Positions 41,661 through 53,101 of a stretch of DNA of 64,000 nucleotides are shown piece after piece. Source of the DNA: Duncaniella sp. GTDB taxonomy: Bacteria > Bacteroidota > Bacteroidia > Bacteroidales > Muribaculaceae. A program made the translations under genes and the position numbers. The notes under the pieces were generated by a model, which saw only the letters and a list, made by a program, of their open reading frames with translations, was not told the origin of the DNA and searched no databases. Position 1 is the first letter of the stretch; the number at the start of each line of letters is the position of its first letter. The stretch covers positions 87,721 to 151,720 of the forward strand of contig JAMPEV010000001.1 in the NCBI GenBank assembly GCA_023664955.1, read 5' to 3'.

Positions 41661-41693
41661 TCCCTTCCGGGAATAATAGTCCATAAAAATTAG

Positions 41694-41733
41694 AACTGGC
41701 TCAAGTTTCTCAAGAAATTTGAGCCAGTTTTTA
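41694..41733 (+). terminator. Terminator after the TlpA-like gene
   Basis: AACTGGCTCAA (41694-41704) pairs with TTGAGCCAGTT (41719-41729), followed by five T. It isolates the polysaccharide locus from upstream transcription. Confidence 0.88.
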
Positions 41734-41913
41734 ATTGTCGGATTCTCCATAAGCAACTTTACAGTGAACGGAATCCATTTGGAGTGGGGGTGTGCGTACA
41801 CCCTGGTGCAGCGCAATGCGATTAAAATAAGCTATTCCAGCAGAGCCCCGGAGCGGCGATGTTGTGCTGATGGAAATTCCCTCCTCGACCAGCAGCGAGT
41901 AGGCATCAAAAAA
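41734..41913. other. Non-coding interval before the invertible segment
   Basis: No supported gene. The base composition is more GC-rich than in the adjacent invertible segment and may contain debris of an older gene. If the promoter segment were inverted, transcription would enter this interval on the minus strand. Confidence 0.5.
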
Positions 41914-41938
41914 ATACTTCTCTTAGTAGGAGAAGTAC
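41914..41938 (+). repeat. Left inverted repeat of the promoter switch
   Basis: 25 bp whose reverse complement matches 42124-42148 at 24 of 25 positions. Internally it is a quasi-palindrome, TACTTCTC - 7 bp - GAGAAGTA, with asymmetric spacer TTAGTAG, the layout of a tyrosine recombinase crossover site. Confidence 0.9.
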
Positions 41939-42031
41939 TATACTCATTTTGCTATTTATAACTAATTGGTTATCAATATAATATAAACCGCTGGATTCAT
42001 CGATTATTTTACATATGTTTTACATTGTGTT

Positions 42032-42048
42032 AAAATGTTGAACATTTT
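42032..42048. promoter_or_regulatory. Palindrome inside the invertible segment
   Basis: AAAATGTT-G-AACATTTT is a perfect 8-bp inverted repeat around one base, centred 44 bp upstream of the -33 box. It has the size of a dimeric activator or repressor site and would move together with the promoter. Confidence 0.4.
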
Positions 42049-42083
42049 TGACTTATGGATGTTAATTTTTGTAGACATAAACT

Positions 42084-42114
42084 TTTGGTGGTTAGGATAT
42101 ATTTTGTACTTTTG
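42084..42114 (+). promoter_or_regulatory. Promoter of the polysaccharide locus
   Basis: TTTG (42084-42087), a 19-bp spacer and TACTTTTG (42107-42114) match the Bacteroidota consensus exactly. Transcription should start around 42121, at the inner edge of the right inverted repeat, 57 nt before the upxY ATG. Confidence 0.9.
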
Positions 42115-42123
42115 CTTCTGAAT

Positions 42124-42148
42124 GTACTTCTCCTACTAAGAGATGTAT
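42124..42148 (+). repeat. Right inverted repeat of the promoter switch
   Basis: The partner of 41914-41938, differing at one base: the distal arm reads GAGATGTA instead of GAGAAGTA. It lies between the promoter and upxY, so the transcript start region keeps the repeat sequence. Confidence 0.9.
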
Positions 42149-42177
42149 GTATTTATAGCGCCACCTTACTCTTGTAA

Positions 42178-42789
42178 ATGGGTGTATATAAGGAAATAAG
42201 CGATTCATCTGCGACAGCGACCCACAACGCTGACGACGCCGTAGGCGTATCCGATGCCCATTGGTATATCGCTATCGTCAACAATCGTTCCGAACGTACA
42301 AACGCCGAACGACTCACCAAAGCCGGCATCGAAAACTATGTCCCCGTACAGGAGGAGCTTCACCTCTGGAACAATGGCAAGAAAGTCCGGATCGAAAGAG
42401 TGATGATCCCCTCAAAGATTTTCATCCGCTGCACCGAGCGCCAAAGGCGCGAGATTGTGAAGCTCCCATTCATCTTCCGCTTCATGACTAACAAAGCCGG
42501 AGAGTCGCGCAACTCCCTCAGCAAACCGCTTGCCATCGTCCCCGCCCACGAAATCGACCAGCTGAAATTTATGCTTGGAGTACCCGACGCAAATGTGTCC
42601 TTCACCGACCGGTTTGTCAAAGGAGAGAAGGTCGAAGTGAGACGCGGTCCCTTCAAAGGACTCACCGGAGTGGTGCTGGAAGATACAACCAGCGGAACGA
42701 GCCACCTATTCATCAACATTGACTTTCTCGGAAGCGCATACGTGAAAATCAACCCAAAGGACGTGACCCCGTGCCAATCTAAAGTTTGA
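42178..42789 (+). CDS. UpxY-type NusG-like antiterminator
   Basis: 203 residues. After a non-conserved leader of about 25 residues comes a NusG N-terminal domain (HWYIAIVNNRSERTNAERLT, GIENYVPVQEELHLWNNGKK, VMIPSKIFIRC). The C-terminal part has a KOW domain (about 143-195: VKGEKVEVRRGPFKGLTGVV). Bacteroides UpxY proteins head capsule loci and prevent premature termination in their own long untranslated or operon transcript. Here it is the first gene after the invertible promoter, consistent with that role. Confidence 0.92.
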   Translation: MGVYKEISDSSATATHNADDAVGVSDAHWYIAIVNNRSERTNAERLTKAGIENYVPVQEELHLWNNGKKVRIERVMIPSKIFIRCTERQRREIVKLPFIFRFMTNKAGESRNSLSKPLAIVPAHEIDQLKFMLGVPDANVSFTDRFVKGEKVEVRRGPFKGLTGVVLEDTTSGTSHLFINIDFLGSAYVKINPKDVTPCQSKV

Positions 42790-42793
42790 CCAG

Positions 42794-43687
42794 ATGACAC
42801 CATCACCGGCTATATCACATACCGCCACCTCCATTATCCCTGCCGATAGCATTGACTATCGCGACGTAGAGGAAATATGCGCCTACCAGCAGCTGATTTG
42901 CAAAATTTACGAGTGTGAGGGTGGATTCAATCTCCCTCCCACGGTCACCCCAACCACCTTGGAGGTGAGCCGGCAAGCTAAAATATGGCTCCTCAAGGTA
43001 AAGTCATTGATCGAAAATATTCTCAATGCACCCTCCTATAATCCCACACTTCGTAACGTAGCTTCTACCCCCAATTTATCATACATCCCTCAGCTCCTCA
43101 GCGGATACGGTCTCCTCTACTATATCGCTTACTCCATGCACTGTAGCGACTATATCCGCTCTGTAAAGCTCCGCACATTCGACCTCTGGCAGCGTGGTAC
43201 CAAGTCAATCTCCCCGACAGATGCAATCCTGCTTCTCCTCTCCGTAGCCGACCGTGACATCGCCACCCTCAAAACGCGATATGCGGATTTCGTCATCGAC
43301 ACAATTCTCTCCTGGATCAACGAGCTCGTCAAAAATGGCTCTTTCCAAAACACGTCATTGTCAGAAACCTACAAGCGTCTCACCTACCTCCTCAACGCAG
43401 AGTTGCACCCCTATATGAGCGACCGTGAAGAGAATCGCACCAAAGCACGGTGGATCAGCACCCACCTCCTCACCGACCAAGAGGCCGACCGTCTCGACAC
43501 CCCCACCCTCCGGGCCTACGCCGCCTTCATCGACGCCATCCCATTCAACGGACGCCGGAAACGCGACCTCAACCAATCAATCTTTACTCACCTCCTCACC
43601 ATCCTCGCCTCACGTCGCGACACCCACCCCCTCCTCACCCAAGCCATCCACCTCACCCTCCACCGCCTCTCCACCCTCCAACTGTAG
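42794..43687 (+). CDS. Unknown protein in the UpxZ position
   Basis: 297 residues, no signal peptide or membrane segment, predicted mostly helical. It follows upxY by 4 bp, the place where Bacteroides encodes UpxZ, an inhibitor of other UpxY proteins, but it is nearly twice as long as UpxZ and I see no convincing sequence match. Segments such as LLSGYGLLYYIAYSMHCSDY and SPTDAILLLLSVADRD are hydrophobic helices. The last 250 bp are strikingly C-rich on the plus strand, encoding many Thr, Leu, His and Pro. A regulatory role is inferred from position only. Confidence 0.75.
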   Translation: MTPSPAISHTATSIIPADSIDYRDVEEICAYQQLICKIYECEGGFNLPPTVTPTTLEVSRQAKIWLLKVKSLIENILNAPSYNPTLRNVASTPNLSYIPQLLSGYGLLYYIAYSMHCSDYIRSVKLRTFDLWQRGTKSISPTDAILLLLSVADRDIATLKTRYADFVIDTILSWINELVKNGSFQNTSLSETYKRLTYLLNAELHPYMSDREENRTKARWISTHLLTDQEADRLDTPTLRAYAAFIDAIPFNGRRKRDLNQSIFTHLLTILASRRDTHPLLTQAIHLTLHRLSTLQL

Positions 43688-43750: not shown

Positions 43751-45283
43751 ATGCCCTCATCCGACAATAAACGTATAGCCAAAAACACACTCTTCCTCTA
43801 CTTCAGAATGCTCCTGATAATGGCGGTAACCCTCTACACCTCACGTGTAGTCCTCAACCAACTCGGAGTAGTGGATTACGGAATTCTAAACGTAGTCGGA
43901 AGCATCGTTTCGATGCTTGCTTTCCTTAATGGCTCAATGAGTCTTGCCGCGCAGAGATTTTTTGCCGTAGACATAGGGAGAAAAGACTTTATCCATCTTA
44001 GAGAAACATTTAGTATGGTAATAAATATACATGCGTTCATAGCTATTATTACCTTAATCCTTGCCGAAACCATTGGATTATGGCTGGTAGATAGGTACCT
44101 CAACATCCCAGACGGAAGCCTTGGCGCTGCAAAAATTGTATACCACTTCGCCATAATACAGACCGTCATTGGCATCCTTACCGTGCCTCTATCATCTCTT
44201 GTGACTGCCTTTGAAAACATGAAAATTTATGCCTATCTATCAATAGTGGAAGCCGGTTTTAAACTTTTAGTTGCATTTCTACTATCATGGATTCTCTATA
44301 ACAAACTCATTCTATATGCTGCATTAGGCACAGGAGTATGTCTAACCATATTTTTGATATGGATAATTTACTGTGTATATAAATATCCTAATTGCCGATA
44401 CTCTTTCATCTGGGATAGCTACATGTTCAAGGAACTTTTTTCATTTTCCGGATGGCAAACTCTTGGCACCTTAACATGGCTTCTTAGGACACAGGGTATC
44501 AATTTTATAATAAACATCTTTTTTGGACCGGTCCTAAACACTGCACGTGGAATCGCAGTACAAGTTAATGCAGCAATAATGCAGGTCGTCACAAACTTCC
44601 AAATGGCATCCAACCCCCAAATTACCAAATACTTTGCCAAAGGTGAAAAAGAAGCTATGTATACTCTTATCCTTCGCAGCTCCAAATTTTCATATCTTCT
44701 GATGTTTATAATCGCCTTACCAGTAACATTTAAAGCAGAACAAATACTTTACTTATGGCTCGGTCAAGTGCCTGATTATAGCGTCATGTTTCTTCGGCTC
44801 ATGATTGTCTGTACCTTATCTGAACTTCTTTCAGGCACAATGGTATATGGAGCATTAGCTTCGGGGAAGGTTAAAGAATATCAATCGTGGATTTGTTCCA
44901 TCTTGATACTTGAGGTTATTTTCGTTTATTTGGCCTATAAAGTCGGATTCCCTCCACAATCGGCTTTCTACATCGAAATTGCGCTTTATTTAGTAGCACT
45001 TATTGCACGGTTATTCATAGTGCATAAATTAATTGGATTGCCAATTTCAAGCTATAGCCATCAAGTTTTATTTCGGGAATTTAGCGTTACTCTCTCTTCC
45101 GTTATTCTCATATATTTCATAGAGCTGCTATTCAAAAATGACCAAATAACATCTTTAATTTGCTTCATTATACTGGCATGGCTATTATGCTCTACGATTT
45201 CCTATTTCCTTGGTTTGTCGTTGAACGAAAGAAAATGGATTAACAGCAAAGTATATTCCCTAATAATCAATAAAATAAAATGA
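43751..45283 (+). CDS. wzx: Polysaccharide flippase (Wzx/MATE-like)
   Basis: 510 residues with 12-14 hydrophobic segments and the Bacteroidales flippase start (RIAKNTLFLYFRMLLIMAVT, YTSRVVLNQLGVVDYGILNV). It should move lipid-linked repeat units across the inner membrane. Its stop overlaps the next start by 4 bp (ATGA). It is the first structural gene of the locus. Confidence 0.9.
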   Translation: MPSSDNKRIAKNTLFLYFRMLLIMAVTLYTSRVVLNQLGVVDYGILNVVGSIVSMLAFLNGSMSLAAQRFFAVDIGRKDFIHLRETFSMVINIHAFIAIITLILAETIGLWLVDRYLNIPDGSLGAAKIVYHFAIIQTVIGILTVPLSSLVTAFENMKIYAYLSIVEAGFKLLVAFLLSWILYNKLILYAALGTGVCLTIFLIWIIYCVYKYPNCRYSFIWDSYMFKELFSFSGWQTLGTLTWLLRTQGINFIINIFFGPVLNTARGIAVQVNAAIMQVVTNFQMASNPQITKYFAKGEKEAMYTLILRSSKFSYLLMFIIALPVTFKAEQILYLWLGQVPDYSVMFLRLMIVCTLSELLSGTMVYGALASGKVKEYQSWICSILILEVIFVYLAYKVGFPPQSAFYIEIALYLVALIARLFIVHKLIGLPISSYSHQVLFREFSVTLSSVILIYFIELLFKNDQITSLICFIILAWLLCSTISYFLGLSLNERKWINSKVYSLIINKIK

Positions 45284-46573: not shown

Positions 46574-47536
46574 ATGGATTGTCAAGCAAAAATCAATCAA
46601 CTTCGTGGTAAGATTTCGGAAACTCTTACCCCTCTAATCAAGAATGATTACGTACTCCTTGATGTCCCCTATCACGGAAATATCGGCGATGTGTTGATTT
46701 GGGAAGGTGAACGAACATTTTTAAAATCATTACCATACAAATGCCTGGCAACGTCAAGTGCCGATTCATGGCGGGGTAATTACCTCCGCCCTGAAGTAGT
46801 TATACTACTTCATGGCGGAGGTAATTTCGGGGACTTGTGGAGGTGGTTTCAAGATTTTAAATTAAATATCATCCGGCATCATCCCGACAATCGAATAATT
46901 ATGTTTCCTCAGTCGGTATGGTATGAGGATGAGTCACTTATCTTGAAGGATGCAGAAATTCTTTCAGCTCATAAGGACCTACATCTATGCGCCCGCGACC
47001 GCTGGAGCTATGATTTCATGAAAAAACATTTTCCTGATTGTAATATCTATCTTCTTCCCGATATGGCTTTTTGCATATCAGACTCTTTTTTAAATCGGTA
47101 CAGAGGGAATGAAACTGATAGGAAGTTGTATTTCCGAAGGACGGACAAGGAAATCTCCTCAAAAACGCCTCTGACTATTGATGCCATCAGCGAGGTACAT
47201 GACTGGCCGACAGTGGAAAAGAGACTAAAAAGGTTTTACTATATGAACCGATTTTATGGACTGGCACGCAGGGCTCCCACTGAATATACTGAAAAACTAA
47301 TCTACGAAACTATCGACCAATTTGCCGACAAATACGTGCGGGAATCGCTTGTTAAACGTGGCGCTGAATTCCTAGCGTCATATAACAGCGTGACAACAAC
47401 TCGCCTCCATGCAATGATTCTCTCCATTCTCCTACACAAGCCGGTGGAATATATTGACAACACGACAGGCAAACTGTCGGCCTTCGCCGACACTTGGCTG
47501 AAGGATCTTGACACAGTCAAAAAATATCATTATTGA
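46574..47536 (+). CDS. Polysaccharide pyruvyl transferase family protein
   Basis: 320 residues. Family motifs: HGNIGDVLIWEGERTFL, VVILLHGGGNFGDLWRWFQ and the C-terminal SYNSVTTTRLHAMILSILLH with the conserved Arg-Leu-His. It transfers pyruvate from phosphoenolpyruvate to a sugar as a ketal, adding negative charge to the glycan. It lies 15 bp after the PP-loop gene. Confidence 0.9.
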   Translation: MDCQAKINQLRGKISETLTPLIKNDYVLLDVPYHGNIGDVLIWEGERTFLKSLPYKCLATSSADSWRGNYLRPEVVILLHGGGNFGDLWRWFQDFKLNIIRHHPDNRIIMFPQSVWYEDESLILKDAEILSAHKDLHLCARDRWSYDFMKKHFPDCNIYLLPDMAFCISDSFLNRYRGNETDRKLYFRRTDKEISSKTPLTIDAISEVHDWPTVEKRLKRFYYMNRFYGLARRAPTEYTEKLIYETIDQFADKYVRESLVKRGAEFLASYNSVTTTRLHAMILSILLHKPVEYIDNTTGKLSAFADTWLKDLDTVKKYHY

Positions 47537-47537
47537 A

Positions 47538-48527
47538 ATGAGCGACAACAATACCATCAAAGTTTCAGTTCTCGTTCCTGTTTATGGAGTGGAGAAATAT
47601 ATCGAACGTTGTGCAAGGTCATTGTTCAATCAGACAATGACTGATGAAATCGAATTTATATTTGTAGATGACTGCACCCCGGACCGAAGCATAGAGATAC
47701 TAAAAAACGTATTGAACGATTATCCCCACCGCAAGTACCAAACACGCATACTACATCACGAAGTCAACAAAGGTCTTCCCGAAGCCCGCAACACCGGCGT
47801 GAACAACGCCTGCGGTGAGTACGTGATTCACTGCGACAGCGATGACTGGGTAGAGCCTAATATGTACGAACTCCTCTACTCCCAAGCCAAACTCACCGAT
47901 GCCGACATAGTCGGCTGCGATTTTTTTGAAGAGCTCCCCGATAAACAAGTATATAGACGGCAGAATTTCAATTTGGATTCCCTTCAAGCATGTAAAAATT
48001 TACTAACTCTTAACCAAATGTTTTTTAACATATGGTCAAGACTTGTAAAGAAAACTCTTTATAAGGATAATGATATCACATTCGATCCTGAGGTGAGGAT
48101 GGGAGAGGATGCTCTGTCATCTATAAAATTACATCTAAGTGCAAATAAAATATCGGGAGTTTCAAACACTCTTTATCATTATAATTGCACGAACGATTCC
48201 TCAATGACAAAAAATTGGACTTACAAAGATGTGGAAAGTATTGAGAAACTGATTAATGCCGTTTTTAAATTTTTGCACACAACGTCAGCATATGACAAAT
48301 TAAAAGTACAATTTTACGAGTTTGTATTTAATCAAAAATTTAGAATTTATTTTAAATCTAATCTTGTCACAAGAAGATGGTTATATGATTTTTATCCAAT
48401 AGCCAATAAATACATTTGGAAGTATCGAATGACAACTCGTGTCAAGATAGTTTATTCATTTATACCGCTTGGATTACCTTTTATTTCAAAGAAAATATTC
48501 AAAATATATAGACACTGTTTATCATAG
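47538..48527 (+). CDS. Family 2 glycosyltransferase
   Basis: 329 residues from the ATG at 47538, 1 bp after the previous stop; a TTG start further upstream would overlap the previous gene. GT-A fold: VSVLVPVYGVEKYIERCARS, EFIFVDDCTPDRS, GLPEARNTGVNNACGEYVIH and the metal-binding DSDD. It adds a sugar to the lipid-linked repeat unit on the cytosolic face. Confidence 0.92.
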   Translation: MSDNNTIKVSVLVPVYGVEKYIERCARSLFNQTMTDEIEFIFVDDCTPDRSIEILKNVLNDYPHRKYQTRILHHEVNKGLPEARNTGVNNACGEYVIHCDSDDWVEPNMYELLYSQAKLTDADIVGCDFFEELPDKQVYRRQNFNLDSLQACKNLLTLNQMFFNIWSRLVKKTLYKDNDITFDPEVRMGEDALSSIKLHLSANKISGVSNTLYHYNCTNDSSMTKNWTYKDVESIEKLINAVFKFLHTTSAYDKLKVQFYEFVFNQKFRIYFKSNLVTRRWLYDFYPIANKYIWKYRMTTRVKIVYSFIPLGLPFISKKIFKIYRHCLS

Positions 48528-48557: not shown

Positions 48558-49541
48558 ATGGAATTATCAATTATAGTCCCTGTTTATAATGTTGAAAAGT
48601 ACATCGAACGTTGTCTATTATCTCTTCTAAATCAACACTTAGACACAGAATCTTACGAAATAATATGTATCAATGACGGCACAAAAGATAACAGTTGCTC
48701 AATTATACAAAAATATCAACAGACGAACAAGAATATACGATTAGTTAATAAAATAAATGGAGGTTTAAGCTCCGCACGAAATAGAGGCATAGAGGAATCA
48801 AAAGGCAAATACATAATGTTCGTAGATTCTGACGATTATATCATACCAAATTCTCTTGCTCCATTATTAGAACGAATGGAGAAAGAAAATTTAGATTTTT
48901 TAGGCTATCATATAAATATCGTTCAAAATAATCATACTTTCAGTTACTTTAAGCATATAAAATTTCCAGATAATAAAGTTATAAATGGAATGGAATATCT
49001 CTCCAACTATTATATTACCATCTCATCTTGGGGACACATTGCATTAAAATCCATTTATGTAAATAATAATCTCAGATTCATTGACGGTATAATCAATGAA
49101 GATTACGAGTTTATGTTACGTCTTTACCCTCTTCTTAATCGCATGTCATTTAGTAACAACATTGTATATATTTACGATATTAAAGATTCCGGAAGCATAA
49201 CTTCTACAAAAACAACTGCCCAGTATAACAAATCTATAATTAGTTGGTTAGCATCACTTAACAGCTTAAGTGATTGGATTTCAACAAAACAGACTTTAAA
49301 TCATAATCAATTGAATTGTATTAACAAATGGATTGATAATTTCAAATATCGTGCATCAGTAAATTTATTAAAATCAAGGATACCGTACGAAAAAAAGATT
49401 GAATTCGAAAATGTCTATAAATCCAAAGGTATCTTTAAGTTTGGATTACAGACACTTAGTGGGCGGCGACTTTTAATAGGAATCCTTATTCGTTTACAAA
49501 TAATTAGAAGTATTTTTTATAGGCTTATATCTGCCAAATAG
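48558..49541 (+). CDS. Family 2 glycosyltransferase
   Basis: 327 residues: LSIIVPVYNVEKYIERCLLS, GLSSARNRGIEESKGKYIMF and DSDD. Later sequence (WGHIALKSIYVNNNLRFIDG, NEDYEFMLRLYPLL) is like that of capsule GT2 enzymes. The gene and the next ones up to about 52270 are visibly AT-richer than the rest of the window, a sign of transfer. Confidence 0.92.
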   Translation: MELSIIVPVYNVEKYIERCLLSLLNQHLDTESYEIICINDGTKDNSCSIIQKYQQTNKNIRLVNKINGGLSSARNRGIEESKGKYIMFVDSDDYIIPNSLAPLLERMEKENLDFLGYHINIVQNNHTFSYFKHIKFPDNKVINGMEYLSNYYITISSWGHIALKSIYVNNNLRFIDGIINEDYEFMLRLYPLLNRMSFSNNIVYIYDIKDSGSITSTKTTAQYNKSIISWLASLNSLSDWISTKQTLNHNQLNCINKWIDNFKYRASVNLLKSRIPYEKKIEFENVYKSKGIFKFGLQTLSGRRLLIGILIRLQIIRSIFYRLISAK

Positions 49542-49554
49542 GTATATTGCATCA

Positions 49555-50610
49555 ATGATAATATATTATATCATTCTATCTACACTGGTGATATTTGCAG
49601 TAGTATTTAATAAAGCAAATACTAACAATCTATTTATAATAATAATTTGTGGCATAGTACTGATAATATTTGCCGGATTCCGATATGAAGACGCAGACTG
49701 GTGGGCTTACGTGGAAATGTTTAAAGATGCTATAACAGGTAAACAATCAGAGCTTAATGATAGTGGTTTTATGACCATTCTTTCTATCATAGGAAAGATT
49801 TGCAAATCACCTGCTTTTATGTTTTCTTGTGTGGCACTCGCTTCTGTTTCACTTAATTTCAAATCATTTTTAAAATACACACCCTATGTATTTATAGCTA
49901 TTCTACTTTATTTTGTGCATAACTTCGCATTAAAGGAAATGATTCAGATTCGAATAGGGTTAGCGAGTGCTATTTGTTTATATTCAATACGGTATTTTTC
50001 TTATAATAGATACAACCATATCATTGCGTTATGGCTTTTATCAATGTCAATTCATATAACAACGATAATATTCGGTATTCTTATACTTTCATATAGGTTT
50101 AAACCGTCAAAAGTTTTTTTGTTATATTCGGTTTGTTTTTCGCTGTTATTAGGACTTGTATTTCCTTTGGGAGAAGTTATCAGAAACTTTACAGGATTAT
50201 CATATAGGTTGGATCAATATGTAGCCTACGGAGATTCCGGTTATGGTTCTGCCATAGGAATTTTTAGGAATCTCAACACTTTGAAAACTCTAATATTTTT
50301 CAGCTTATTCTATCATTATTTTAACATCTTATGTAAAATAAATAAATTCTTTTATCCTTTAATTTTAAGTTATACGATAGGACTTTGCTGGTTATTATGT
50401 TTTAATGATTTTGCAATAGTGGGAGCAAGAATGTCTAATATTATGCTATCAGTGGAACCTATTCTTTTGTCACTACCACTTGTGTTTTTTAAAGGGAAAA
50501 AATTTTGGCTATATAAAATATTACTTATCCTTTTAAGTATCATAATTTTTGCGAATAACATCGCGCCTAATAAAATATCATCTTATAAATTTTATTTTAA
50601 TTACACATGA
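49555..50610 (+). CDS. wzy: EpsG/Wzy-type polysaccharide polymerase
   Basis: 351 residues, about ten hydrophobic segments. GFRYEDADWWAYVEMF matches the EpsG-family signature after the second helix, and FALKEMIQIRIGLASAICLY the conserved Arg segment. It should polymerise the flipped repeat units at the periplasmic face. Its stop overlaps the next gene by 4 bp (ATGA). Very AT-rich. Confidence 0.85.
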   Translation: MIIYYIILSTLVIFAVVFNKANTNNLFIIIICGIVLIIFAGFRYEDADWWAYVEMFKDAITGKQSELNDSGFMTILSIIGKICKSPAFMFSCVALASVSLNFKSFLKYTPYVFIAILLYFVHNFALKEMIQIRIGLASAICLYSIRYFSYNRYNHIIALWLLSMSIHITTIIFGILILSYRFKPSKVFLLYSVCFSLLLGLVFPLGEVIRNFTGLSYRLDQYVAYGDSGYGSAIGIFRNLNTLKTLIFFSLFYHYFNILCKINKFFYPLILSYTIGLCWLLCFNDFAIVGARMSNIMLSVEPILLSLPLVFFKGKKFWLYKILLILLSIIIFANNIAPNKISSYKFYFNYT

Positions 50611-51656
50611 AAATTGCCATGATTCTTCCAAGTCTCGCTCAGACAGGTCCTGGTTTTGTTGTAAAGGACTTGTGTACTGAATTTATTAAATTAGGTCATA
50701 CATGTAAAGTTTTTTTCTTTGACGATGTTGCCAGGATTCTTTTGATGCCATGTGAAGTAGAGAATATTAAATTCTGTACTCCATTTGATTTTGACAGTTG
50801 GGATATTATTCATTCTCATATGTTTCGACCGGATTTATATTTATCATGGCACAGTCGCAAAATTAAAAGGGCAAAAACGGTTTCCACTCTACATAATCCC
50901 ATAACGTTACAAGAGTTACACAAATCATATTCTCTTATAAAATCACTTGCAGCATCTATTCTTTGGAGCAGAGCTCTATACACCTCTAACCGAATAATAA
51001 CATTAAATTCCATTACTTTGAATGAACAAAAAACATATATAAGAGATAAATCATGTGTTATATTCAATGGAAGAAACATAAATATAGCAAATGCCAACTC
51101 ATTGATTGTAGAAAATCCCGAAATTGGCAATCTGAAAGCTCAATATAAAATCATTGGTACTATATGTTCATTAACAAAGAGAAAAGCTGTCGATCAAATA
51201 ATAAAAGCATTAAAGTTTCTCCCTAATTATGCCTTCTTTTGTTTGGGTGAAGGTAAAGAATTAGATAATCTTATTACTCTTGCTAAATCATTAGGAGTAG
51301 AAAACAGATGTTACTTTATTGGATTTAAAGAAAATGCGACCGACTATATTTCACTCTTTGATATATTTGCTTTGACAAGTAAATCTGAAGGATTTCCATT
51401 AGCATTAATTGAAGCAGCAGCATATGGAATTCCAACAGTGCTCTCTGATATTCCAATTTTACGATCAATTATTTCTGATAAAGAGGTTTGTTTTTATGAA
51501 TTAGAGAATATAACAGACTTAATTCATGCCATTAACAAAGCCAGTCAAGAATCTGAACATTTATCAAAAAATATTCATGAATTTTATAAAAAGGAGCTTA
51601 CTGCTGATGAAATGGCAGCCAAATATTTGGCCCTATATTACAAAATTCTCATCTGA
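50607..51656 (+). CDS. Family 4 glycosyltransferase
   Basis: 349 residues, GT-B fold. N-terminal MKIAMILPSLAQTGPGFVVK; C-terminal nucleotide-sugar site GTICSLTKRKAVDQIIKALK, CYFIGFKENATDYISLFDIF and SKSEGFPLALIEAAAYGIPT with the EGFP-x7-E motif. Translationally coupled to the polymerase gene. Confidence 0.93.
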   Translation: MKIAMILPSLAQTGPGFVVKDLCTEFIKLGHTCKVFFFDDVARILLMPCEVENIKFCTPFDFDSWDIIHSHMFRPDLYLSWHSRKIKRAKTVSTLHNPITLQELHKSYSLIKSLAASILWSRALYTSNRIITLNSITLNEQKTYIRDKSCVIFNGRNINIANANSLIVENPEIGNLKAQYKIIGTICSLTKRKAVDQIIKALKFLPNYAFFCLGEGKELDNLITLAKSLGVENRCYFIGFKENATDYISLFDIFALTSKSEGFPLALIEAAAYGIPTVLSDIPILRSIISDKEVCFYELENITDLIHAINKASQESEHLSKNIHEFYKKELTADEMAAKYLALYYKILI

Positions 51657-51664
51657 TAAAACGT

Positions 51665-52273
51665 ATGATTATAGCTACAATTCAAAATAAATACTCATTC
51701 ATAGGACTAATCAAGTTGATGTATAGTTTTGTTACAACTAAATTATTGTACAACAGACAACGTATTATACGTCAGCCATTTACTAATAGGGGGGGGTGTA
51801 TGATCCAATTTGGTAAAGGTCTGACCACCGGAGTTGGATGCCGGTTGGAGGCGTTCATTGCCGATGGGGATAAGTCAATTAAGATGACTATAGGGACTAA
51901 TGTTCAATTAAATGATTATGTCCATATATCAGCAATAAATTCTGTATATATTGGAGATGATGTGTTGATGGCTTCTCACGTATATATTTCAGACAATAGC
52001 CACGGAATTTATGATAAATCCGAATATGCCACTGCTCCATATATCCCTCCAATTAAACGACCATATCATGCTGCTCCAGTTATCATTGGTAACAGAGTTT
52101 GGCTTGGAGAGGGTGTTATAGTCATGCCTGGAGTAATTATAGGTGAGGGTTCAATAATCGGTGTACATTCAATTGTAAATAAAAATATTCCACGGAATTG
52201 TATTGCAGTTGGTTCTCCTGCAAAAGTTATTAAACAGTGGGATTCCGTCAATCAAAACTGGATTAAAGTTTGA
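51665..52273 (+). CDS. Hexapeptide acyltransferase with a poly-G tract (ON as sequenced)
   Basis: 202 residues, left-handed beta-helix type of the WcaF/maltose O-acetyltransferase group: GKGLTTGVGCRLEAF, HVYISDNSHGIYDKSE (catalytic His), PVIIGNRVWLGEGVIVMPGV and the C-terminal IPRNCIAVGSPAKVI. It probably O-acetylates a sugar of the glycan. Codons 42-44 are made of eight G (51789-51796), after which the domain begins; loss or gain of one G would abolish the enzyme. Confidence 0.9.
   Translation: MIIATIQNKYSFIGLIKLMYSFVTTKLLYNRQRIIRQPFTNRGGCMIQFGKGLTTGVGCRLEAFIADGDKSIKMTIGTNVQLNDYVHISAINSVYIGDDVLMASHVYISDNSHGIYDKSEYATAPYIPPIKRPYHAAPVIIGNRVWLGEGVIVMPGVIIGEGSIIGVHSIVNKNIPRNCIAVGSPAKVIKQWDSVNQNWIKV
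51789..51796 (+). repeat. Poly-G tract (8 G) in the acyltransferase gene
   Basis: Eight consecutive G within AGG GGG GGG. The frame is intact in this sequence. Only the poly-C at 45622 is longer among the G/C tracts I noticed in the window. Confidence 0.88.
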
Positions 52274-52279
52274 ATTATT

Positions 52280-53101
52280 ATGATAACAGCTTCGATAGTT
52301 ACATTCCATACACGCCATAGCGATTTGTCTAGGCTGATTGACTGCGTGATGAGGTCGCCTGTCGACAAACTCTATATAATCGACAATTCGTCGAACGATG
52401 AACTGAGGGAGGTTGTGGCCGGAAACAGCAGAATCCATTATATCCACAGTCTAAACCTCGGTTATGGTAGCGGACATAACGTGGCAATACGTAAATCAAT
52501 CGAAGAAAGTGCGAAATATCATGCCATACTTAATCCTGATGTCTATTGGACTGACGATGTGATGGAACAACTTTCTATATATCTCTACAACCATCCTGAA
52601 TGTGGCCTTGTAATGCCAAAAGTACTATATCCTTCAGGTGAGACACAGTATCTTTGTAAGCTGGTCCCAACGCCCGCAGATTTAATTTTGCGTCGGTTCA
52701 TCCCGATAAAGCCTTGGCAAGATAGGCATGATTATGAGTACGAGATGCACTGGACTGGATATGATACGATAATGGAGGTGCCGATACTTTCGGGCTGCTT
52801 CATGATGCTACGTTGTGATGTCATAAAAAAGGTTGGAGGATTTGATGAACGTTATTTTATGTATGCGGAAGATGTTGACCTCTGCAGACGTATTGGGGAG
52901 GTAGCGACAACAATATTTTATCCATATGTTTCGATATATCACGAGTATGCAAAAGGCTCATACGGAAATAAAAAGATGATGTTGATGCACATCAAGTCTA
53001 TAACAAAATATTTCAATAAATGGGGTTGGATATTCGACCAAAAACGAGATAAGCGAAATCGGCGTTGCATAGCTCAAATCAAATCGGAGATGGGGATTTA
53101 A
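52280..53101 (+). CDS. Family 2 glycosyltransferase, rhamnosyltransferase-like
   Basis: 273 residues: ASIVTFHTRHSDLSRLIDCV, LYIIDNSSND, LGYGSGHNVAIRKSIEES, LNPDVYW (metal site) and VPILSGCFMMLRCDVIKKVG with YAEDVDLCRR. This pattern is that of RfbF/WbbL-like enzymes. It is the last gene of the locus, and base composition returns to normal within it. Confidence 0.92.
   Translation: MITASIVTFHTRHSDLSRLIDCVMRSPVDKLYIIDNSSNDELREVVAGNSRIHYIHSLNLGYGSGHNVAIRKSIEESAKYHAILNPDVYWTDDVMEQLSIYLYNHPECGLVMPKVLYPSGETQYLCKLVPTPADLILRRFIPIKPWQDRHDYEYEMHWTGYDTIMEVPILSGCFMMLRCDVIKKVGGFDERYFMYAEDVDLCRRIGEVATTIFYPYVSIYHEYAKGSYGNKKMMLMHIKSITKYFNKWGWIFDQKRDKRNRRCIAQIKSEMGI

Follow-up and report, generated by a model that had tools for sequence, protein, structure and literature searches.

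Mpi of Bacteroides fragilis is a serine recombinase, and its site differs from the one considered here. The inversion of promoters in front of upxY genes is established in this species, where one global invertase inverts the promoters of several upxY capsule loci (PMC12632263, PMC4747536). The preliminary description of the DNA studied here likewise names such inversion as known for Bacteroides capsules. Equally established there is the action of tyrosine invertases near and far: BF2766 (Tsr19) inverts two promoters, one nearby and one distant, that serve an EPS operon and a lipoprotein-gene cluster, and Tsr0667 works on SusC/SusD clusters and on nine further regions (PMC4747536). In the hCom2 community, there are inverton groups with a common repeat sequence, beside which UpxY genes and tyrosine invertases are enriched (PMC11892184). 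The shufflon sites (sfx) of Rci, again a tyrosine recombinase, have a 7-bp core between arms (PMC11852207).

The window (the whole 64,000-nucleotide stretch of Duncaniella sp. DNA that was analysed) contains a locus that resembles the Mpi loci: its promoter, too, is bracketed by inverted repeats and precedes upxY and a polysaccharide operon, and one invertase may serve several loci. The features around the promoter are as follows:

41687..41736, both strands: hairpin behind the upstream gene (+ strand, -26 kcal/mol, z -7.1; - strand, -19.8, z -5.8)
41907..41939, - strand: left site, a stem with a T-run behind it, which resembles a terminator for transcripts in the OFF direction (1 in the scanned stretch against 0.5 expected)
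41914..41938, - strand: predicted left recombination site (core TCTC-N7-GAGA at 41919-41933; spacer CTACTAA on the - strand; arms TACTTCTC / GAGAAGTA)
41939..42123, no strand: 185-bp segment enclosed by the sites and taken to be invertible
42084..42114, + strand: Bacteroidales-type promoter TTTG-N19-TAnnTTTG, a perfect match, pointing at upxY (ON)
42124..42148, + strand: predicted right recombination site, the inverted copy (core at 42129-42143; spacer CTACTAA on the + strand; arms TACTTCTC / GAGATGTA)

The repeats, 185 nt apart, are alike at 24 of 25 positions, exactly as first described, and the match extends to 28 of 31 (41908-41938 and 42124-42154). They are the sole pair in the window with at least 23 of 25 positions alike and 80-450 nt between the arms, and none of 20 first-order Markov random windows contained a comparable pair. 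Each repeat is also near-palindromic in itself, ACTTCTC-N7-GAGAAGT-like around the spacer CTACTAA, which is the anatomy of a tyrosine-recombinase-like site, TCTC-N7-GAGA. The perfect promoter motif occurs seven times in the window (0.29 expected from shuffles), and only the match at 42084-42114 is enclosed by such repeats; it ends 9 nt before the right repeat and 63 nt before the upxY start codon. No open reading frame of at least 80 aa lies wholly within the segment, in line with the earlier statement that it holds no gene; one of 80 aa (41719-41961) reaches 23 nt into it. The window thus has a promoter between inverted repeats in an intergenic region.

Downstream, in the direction of the promoter, lie these genes:

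42178..42789, + strand: UpxY family transcription antiterminator, 203 aa (NCBIfam NF033644, 115.7 against a cut-off of 100 bits)
42794..43687, + strand: 297-aa protein, second behind upxY, in the place of UpxZ (no Pfam or NCBIfam match)
43751..45283, + strand: flippase-like protein (MatE, weak, 25.3 against 24.9)
46574..47536, + strand: polysaccharide pyruvyl transferase
47508-48527 and 48558-49541, + strand: two family-2 glycosyltransferases
49555..50610, + strand: EpsG-family protein, likely the polymerase
50607..53101, + strand: group-1 glycosyltransferase, hexapeptide transferase and family-2 glycosyltransferase; end of the likely operon

This order (upxY, then a flippase with a weak match, a polymerase and glycosyltransferases) is that of a polysaccharide locus headed by UpxY and bears out the earlier statement that the promoter faces such genes: the UpxY protein scores above its NCBIfam cut-off, and glycan genes continue to 53101. 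Neither Pfam nor NCBIfam recognised a UpxZ behind upxY. The 297-aa protein, which is distantly similar (21-30% over parts) to the genes in the same place behind upxY at three other loci (L072, L078 and L079), may be a stand-in for it.

The 185-bp segment is, with high probability, an invertible promoter with which a tyrosine recombinase, most likely a 404-aa enzyme encoded elsewhere in the genome, would switch the glycan operon on and off. The recombinase would bind the half-sites TACnTCTC / GAGAnGTA, pair the two sites and exchange strands within their matched 7-bp spacer, CTACTAA, so that the promoter is inverted. With the segment as assembled, upxY and the glycan operon of 11 kb would be transcribed; with it flipped, leftward transcripts would run into hairpins and the locus would be off. 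Such transcripts could stop at the hairpin at 41687-41736. The arguments for inversion are the anatomy of the sites, the promoter, the genes downstream, a second inverton, opposite orientations in relatives, the association of arms with recombinase clades, and a search of this assembly for resolvase genes that found none. That the segment serves as an invertible promoter in the window is very likely, and we infer its flipping in this strain, as well as the OFF state and the glycan phenotype of the locus, from these comparisons.

Which kind of enzyme might act here? A profile search of the genome's own assembly, which is 83% complete, found five proteins with PF00589 (the tyrosine family) and none with PF00239 (the serine or resolvase family); the PF00239 search was positive in 10 of 14 control genomes and negative in the Bacteroides control. 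A serine invertase of the Mpi type, acting here as at the B. fragilis capsule loci, would account for an invertible promoter before upxY, an arrangement common to both; the result of the PF00239 search and the association of the site arms with tyrosine recombinases make it very improbable. Unlike the Mpi loci, the window thus has tyrosine-type sites and no resolvase-family gene was found, a difference drawn from enzymes and site anatomy rather than from the letters of the Mpi site. The preliminary description had taken the repeat for a different recombination site, and the 7-bp spacer between inverted arms, arms of a tyrosine clade and the lack of PF00239 matches in the assembly agree with this.

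The same genome has another inverton with arms of this kind, at 205-409 of contig 11. Its spacer is TTACTAA at both sites, and it too encloses a perfect TTTG-N19-TAnnTTTG promoter, which faces a strong hairpin (-31 kcal/mol, z -7.7) ahead of rhamnose genes. On the other side a lipoprotein-like gene begins, of which 26 aa are seen before the contig end cuts it:

L011:1-240: end of contig 11, inside the lipoprotein-like gene

The contig 11 promoter is directed away from its likely target, the lipoprotein-like gene. Since the promoter in the window points toward upxY, one of the two invertons would, by this reading, be ON and the other OFF. The TCTC is preceded by TACn in all four half-sites of the window and in three of four on contig 11. 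No further invertons were found in 482 kb of this genome.

The candidate enzyme is encoded as follows:

contig 11:409638-410849: 404-aa tyrosine recombinase, with no inverton adjoining it, about 280 kb away

Its seven neighbouring genes encode LpxD, LpxC/FabA, an LpxA-like protein, endonuclease I, SmpB, one unmatched protein and a Rex-like protein; a tRNA-Met lies among them. As none of the seven is a mobile-element gene, the idea that the 404-aa protein is the integrase of such an element is not favoured.

The link between enzyme and site comes from relatives. At one locus (L085), a related recombinase, 41% identical to the 404-aa protein over 400 residues, lies 217 bp from an inverton. In all, 98 recombinase loci were examined: the genome's own, L085, 36 search matches and 60 from the top of the match listings. 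In the DNA examined, an exact TCTC-N7-GAGA pair was present at 29 of them, on the 3' side of the gene in 28, and in 27 of these 28 it was 12-544 bp off. At 43 of the 92 loci with at least 250 bp of 3' DNA, some inverted repeat was seen within 1 kb 3' of the gene; a few of these repeats look unrelated. In a tree built by a quick method, the genome's own enzyme and its nearest kin (L087, 58% identical) lie within a set of 21 rows (SH-aLRT 89), which includes every one of the nine enzymes labelled TACnTCTC-type and none of the 17 labelled as GTATCTC/CAAATCTC-type. With fixed patterns, TACnTCTC arms were found 3' of the gene in 9 of the 20 other members of this set against 1 of 77 outside it (p=1e-6), and GTATCTC/CAAATCTC arms in 0 of 20 against 13 of 77 (p=0.06). 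By this comparison, the arm type tracks the recombinase clade, and the arms in the window match the clade of the 404-aa enzyme.

The distribution of genomes points the same way. Recombinases of the genome's own type are found in 23 of 24 genomes with the site and in 209 of 373 without it (p=3e-5), or, in good assemblies, 14 of 14 and 130 of 208 (p=0.002), so the family is also common where the site is not seen; for the L085 type, the figures are 13 of 24 and 101 of 373 (p=0.006). These Fisher tests ignore kinship and genome size.

The segment might nevertheless be inverted by another recombinase: the XerD-like L013, the XerC-like L014, L015, L017, or one from the missing part of the genome. 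This possibility, which we regard as rather unlikely, draws on the presence of five PF00589 proteins in the assembly and on the surroundings of the 404-aa gene, which has neither an inverton nor an inverted repeat within 1 kb on its 3' side, unlike its nearest kin L087, which does have an inverton there. Two other genomes that bear the site, however, have a best-matching recombinase (L095, L096) that is likewise alone, and L013 and L014 (321.8 against 329.6, and 285 against 335.15) are XerD/XerC-like though below the equivalog cut-offs. Moreover, when the recombinases adjoining invertons were compared with the five tyrosine recombinases of this genome (18 of the 29 loci), the 404-aa enzyme was the best match in 18 of 18, at 331-484 bits, with the next best of the five at 61-98 bits; the fit of the window arms to its clade also argues against another enzyme. 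The 404-aa protein is therefore probably the invertase of the window segment. With two invertons bearing these arms and one clade-matched enzyme that may act on both, this genome comes closest to Tsr19/BF2766 and Tsr0667 in its presumed mode of action; the likeness is one of action and not of site letters, and the 404-aa enzyme, unlike Tsr19, has no local inverton.

How widespread is the site? The sequence TCTCYTACTAAGAGA is present in 24 of 397 genomes of the family, with 49 matches against 6 for the backward control. An order-level scan found it in 4 of 295 genomes, the genome studied here included; outside this genome there were 7 matches against 5 for the backward control, but six of these matches make up three inverted pairs, found in two genomes from a single other family. 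A 21-mer scan with wildcards gave two Prevotellaceae MAG loci with the core. An exact 19-mer of the site had no match in the contig collection scanned, and the 291-bp segment had none in a phage collection and, against 61 genomes (this one and 60 relatives), gave only its own copies and one 24-bp match in G049. In the genus, the 21-bp site at up to two mismatches had 1 match outside this genome against 7 for the backward control, which means that single matches at this stringency carry no meaning; the lone match, in G005, is half of a pair adjoining a UpxY-like gene. PINSR, a Prevotella repeat, was considered as a relative of the site and set aside as unrelated because it has no terminal inverted repeats according to its authors, in the accessible text (PMC4755523).

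Both sites were resolved, at up to two mismatches, in 23 of the 33 family loci; together with the two Prevotellaceae MAG pairs, this gives 25 resolved pairs, all 25 of which are inverted. Of the ten single sites, eight are at contig ends, and 12 of the 33 loci lie within about 500 bp of one, as expected if assemblies break on mixed orientations, although repeats alone would do likewise. Under a relaxed rule, both promoter boxes were found within 11 of the 25 pairs, TAnnTTTG alone in 13 and neither in one (L068), so that only the -7 box was detected in most relatives.

Genes for UpxY-type, SusC-type or DUF3575 proteins adjoin 13 of the 23 resolved family loci. The UpxY neighbours score above the NCBIfam cut-off in the window, at L072 and in two divergent genes at L055, and below the cut-off of 100 at L067 (87 bits) and L085 (83 bits); fused UpxY-like forms adjoin the inverton at L078 and L079 (42-45 bits). 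SusC-type receptors are found on each side at L060 and L083 and at L082, and DUF3575 genes at L056, L069 and L080. These switches thus lie next to genes for the surfaces met by phages and the host (glycan operons, DUF3575 genes and SusC-type receptors), and the window locus would extend capsule phase variation from Bacteroides to another family of the Bacteroidales. DNA modification or defence genes may be targets too, since one site pair (L057:5820-6009) adjoins an EcoRI-type methylase gene and another (L071:6154-6343) a DUF4007 gene.

Several of these places have genes on both sides. The inverton at L055:4125-7848 separates two divergent UpxY genes, either of which has a polysaccharide export (PF02563) gene behind it; the arrangement resembles a switch that selects one or the other of two glycan loci. 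At L060:2359-9755 and L083:2261-9264, the invertons lie between divergent SusC-type receptors and may offer an either/or choice of receptor.

Orientation in relatives was compared at two levels. With the window UpxY as query, 13 further upxY places were found, spread over 10 of the 26 other genus members scanned, the best being 51% identical. At six of these places, an inverton of this type lies 0-77 nt before the aligned start (L135, L138, L140, L144, and L143/L145, one inverton with divergent upxY genes). The promoter box is directed toward upxY at L135, L138 and L143 and away from it at L140 and L144, directions that rest on the -7 box; L140 and L144 are two similar places within one genome. 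At L067, also of this genus, a promoter with N20 spacing is directed away from the UpxY-like gene. At L143 (G010:C2:658959-660381), the repeats are 68 nt long, identical at 67, and extend into the starts of the two divergent upxY genes, apparently another either/or arrangement.

L078 and L079 are one orthologous locus in two species of one genus, with flanks collinear at 84% and 87%. The segment between the sites is reversed: 63 bp agree at 100% in reverse, and the whole is 78% identical inverted against 60% direct. Relative to both the flanks and the inner segment, the middle base of the spacer (C or G) is swapped between the two species (L078:5994-6205 against L079:3144-3356), which is beyond what simple inversion between matched sites explains. 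The claim of an invertible promoter gains support from this locus, from the same-genus upxY loci facing both ways and from the contig 11 inverton. The expectation that relatives would hold the segment in both orientations was borne out for the homologous L078/L079 locus; the window segment itself had no orthologue at the 13 upxY places. The comparisons indicate that this type of site recombines, a statement on relatives rather than on the window.

The spacers themselves were compared in a search for neighbouring TCTC-N7-GAGA sites, 100-450 bp apart and with any spacer, in the DNA collected for the loci. The 7-bp spacers are identical and inverted in 57 of 60 neighbouring pairs, and the other three differ at 2-3 positions. 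With the TTACTAA/CTACTAA pairs set aside, as many loci had been chosen by those spacers, there are 26 different spacers among 36 pairs, some of which are near-copies and so not all independent. Within a pair, each spacer position agrees at 97-100% (59 pairs with flanks). The outer flanks are about 30-70% identical; directly outside the arms, identity is 71% on the outer and 75% on the inner side, and 19-59% further out. Spacers of different loci agree at 64%, the better orientation being taken. In a smaller, earlier set, the matched pairs with TCTC arms numbered 43 inverted and 0 direct; the other 255 four-base arms gave a mean of 0.035 matched pairs and a maximum of 5 (CTCT).

These figures bear on whether the repeats could be static, whether as the remnant of an inverton that no longer turns or as palindromes that serve as operators or attenuators. 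Such a reading would fit sites that are each a stem, the left one with a T-run behind it, and the inversion of the window segment is argued from sequence comparison. We consider it improbable, as partner spacers are conserved beyond their flanks, all resolved pairs are inverted, an orthologous locus is found in opposite orientations, and more than half of the resolved family loci adjoin the three gene types named above.

A widespread family of tyrosine invertases may recognise clade-specific half-sites around TCTC-N7-GAGA, and the crossover spacer, matched within a pair and mostly locus-specific, may prevent recombination between the invertons of one enzyme family. We advance this two-part address, jointly with a dead recombinase-UpxY fusion at the switch (see below), as a tentative proposal with the odds somewhat against it, the address function of the spacer being a hypothesis. 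It is weakened by genomes with several TTACTAA loci (G163, G379, G151, G135 and G423), although those loci were found via that spacer. If it were true, the arms would tell which recombinase flips which promoter and the spacer which two sites recombine, and all promoters under one invertase would be predictable from sequence. Two neighbouring invertons with different spacers are found at two loci (L080/L044 and L168); at L080:5531-6033 (L044:1013-1210), the spacers TAAATAA and TTACTAA precede one DUF3575 gene.

The sfx sites share with this family a tyrosine recombinase and a 7-bp core between arms. In sfx, the left arm is the variable part and conservation covers the core together with the right arm (PMC11852207), whereas the window family has conserved inner arms on either side and a spacer that varies between loci and matches within the pair. 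The hCom2 groups are alike in their common repeat sequence and in the adjoining UpxY genes and tyrosine invertases; the main text of that paper (PMC11892184) gives no site letters and no spacer or half-site terms, and its supplements may overlap in site groups. The arm/spacer pattern was not found in the part of PMC4747536 examined, and a search with the site letters returned only papers with unrelated titles. No description of such a site family was found in the literature searched, supplements and most subscription papers lying outside its scope.

Beside the inverton at L078 and L079 lies a 540-aa protein (L078:4391-6013 and L079:1541-3166, both on the - strand) in which the remnant of a tyrosine recombinase (Phage_int_SAM_5) is followed by a UpxY-like C-terminus that scores 42-45 bits against a cut-off of 100. 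It lacks what we take to be the catalytic positions of the aligned intact enzymes. In some lineages, such a dead recombinase copy fused to a UpxY-like domain would place a site-binding antiterminator at the switch. A similar protein is present in 31 of 387 family genomes at E<=1e-60, in some with internal stops, and 31 of 32 matches extend beyond residue 500. In G134, the fusion protein follows an intact recombinase, with an inverton between the two.
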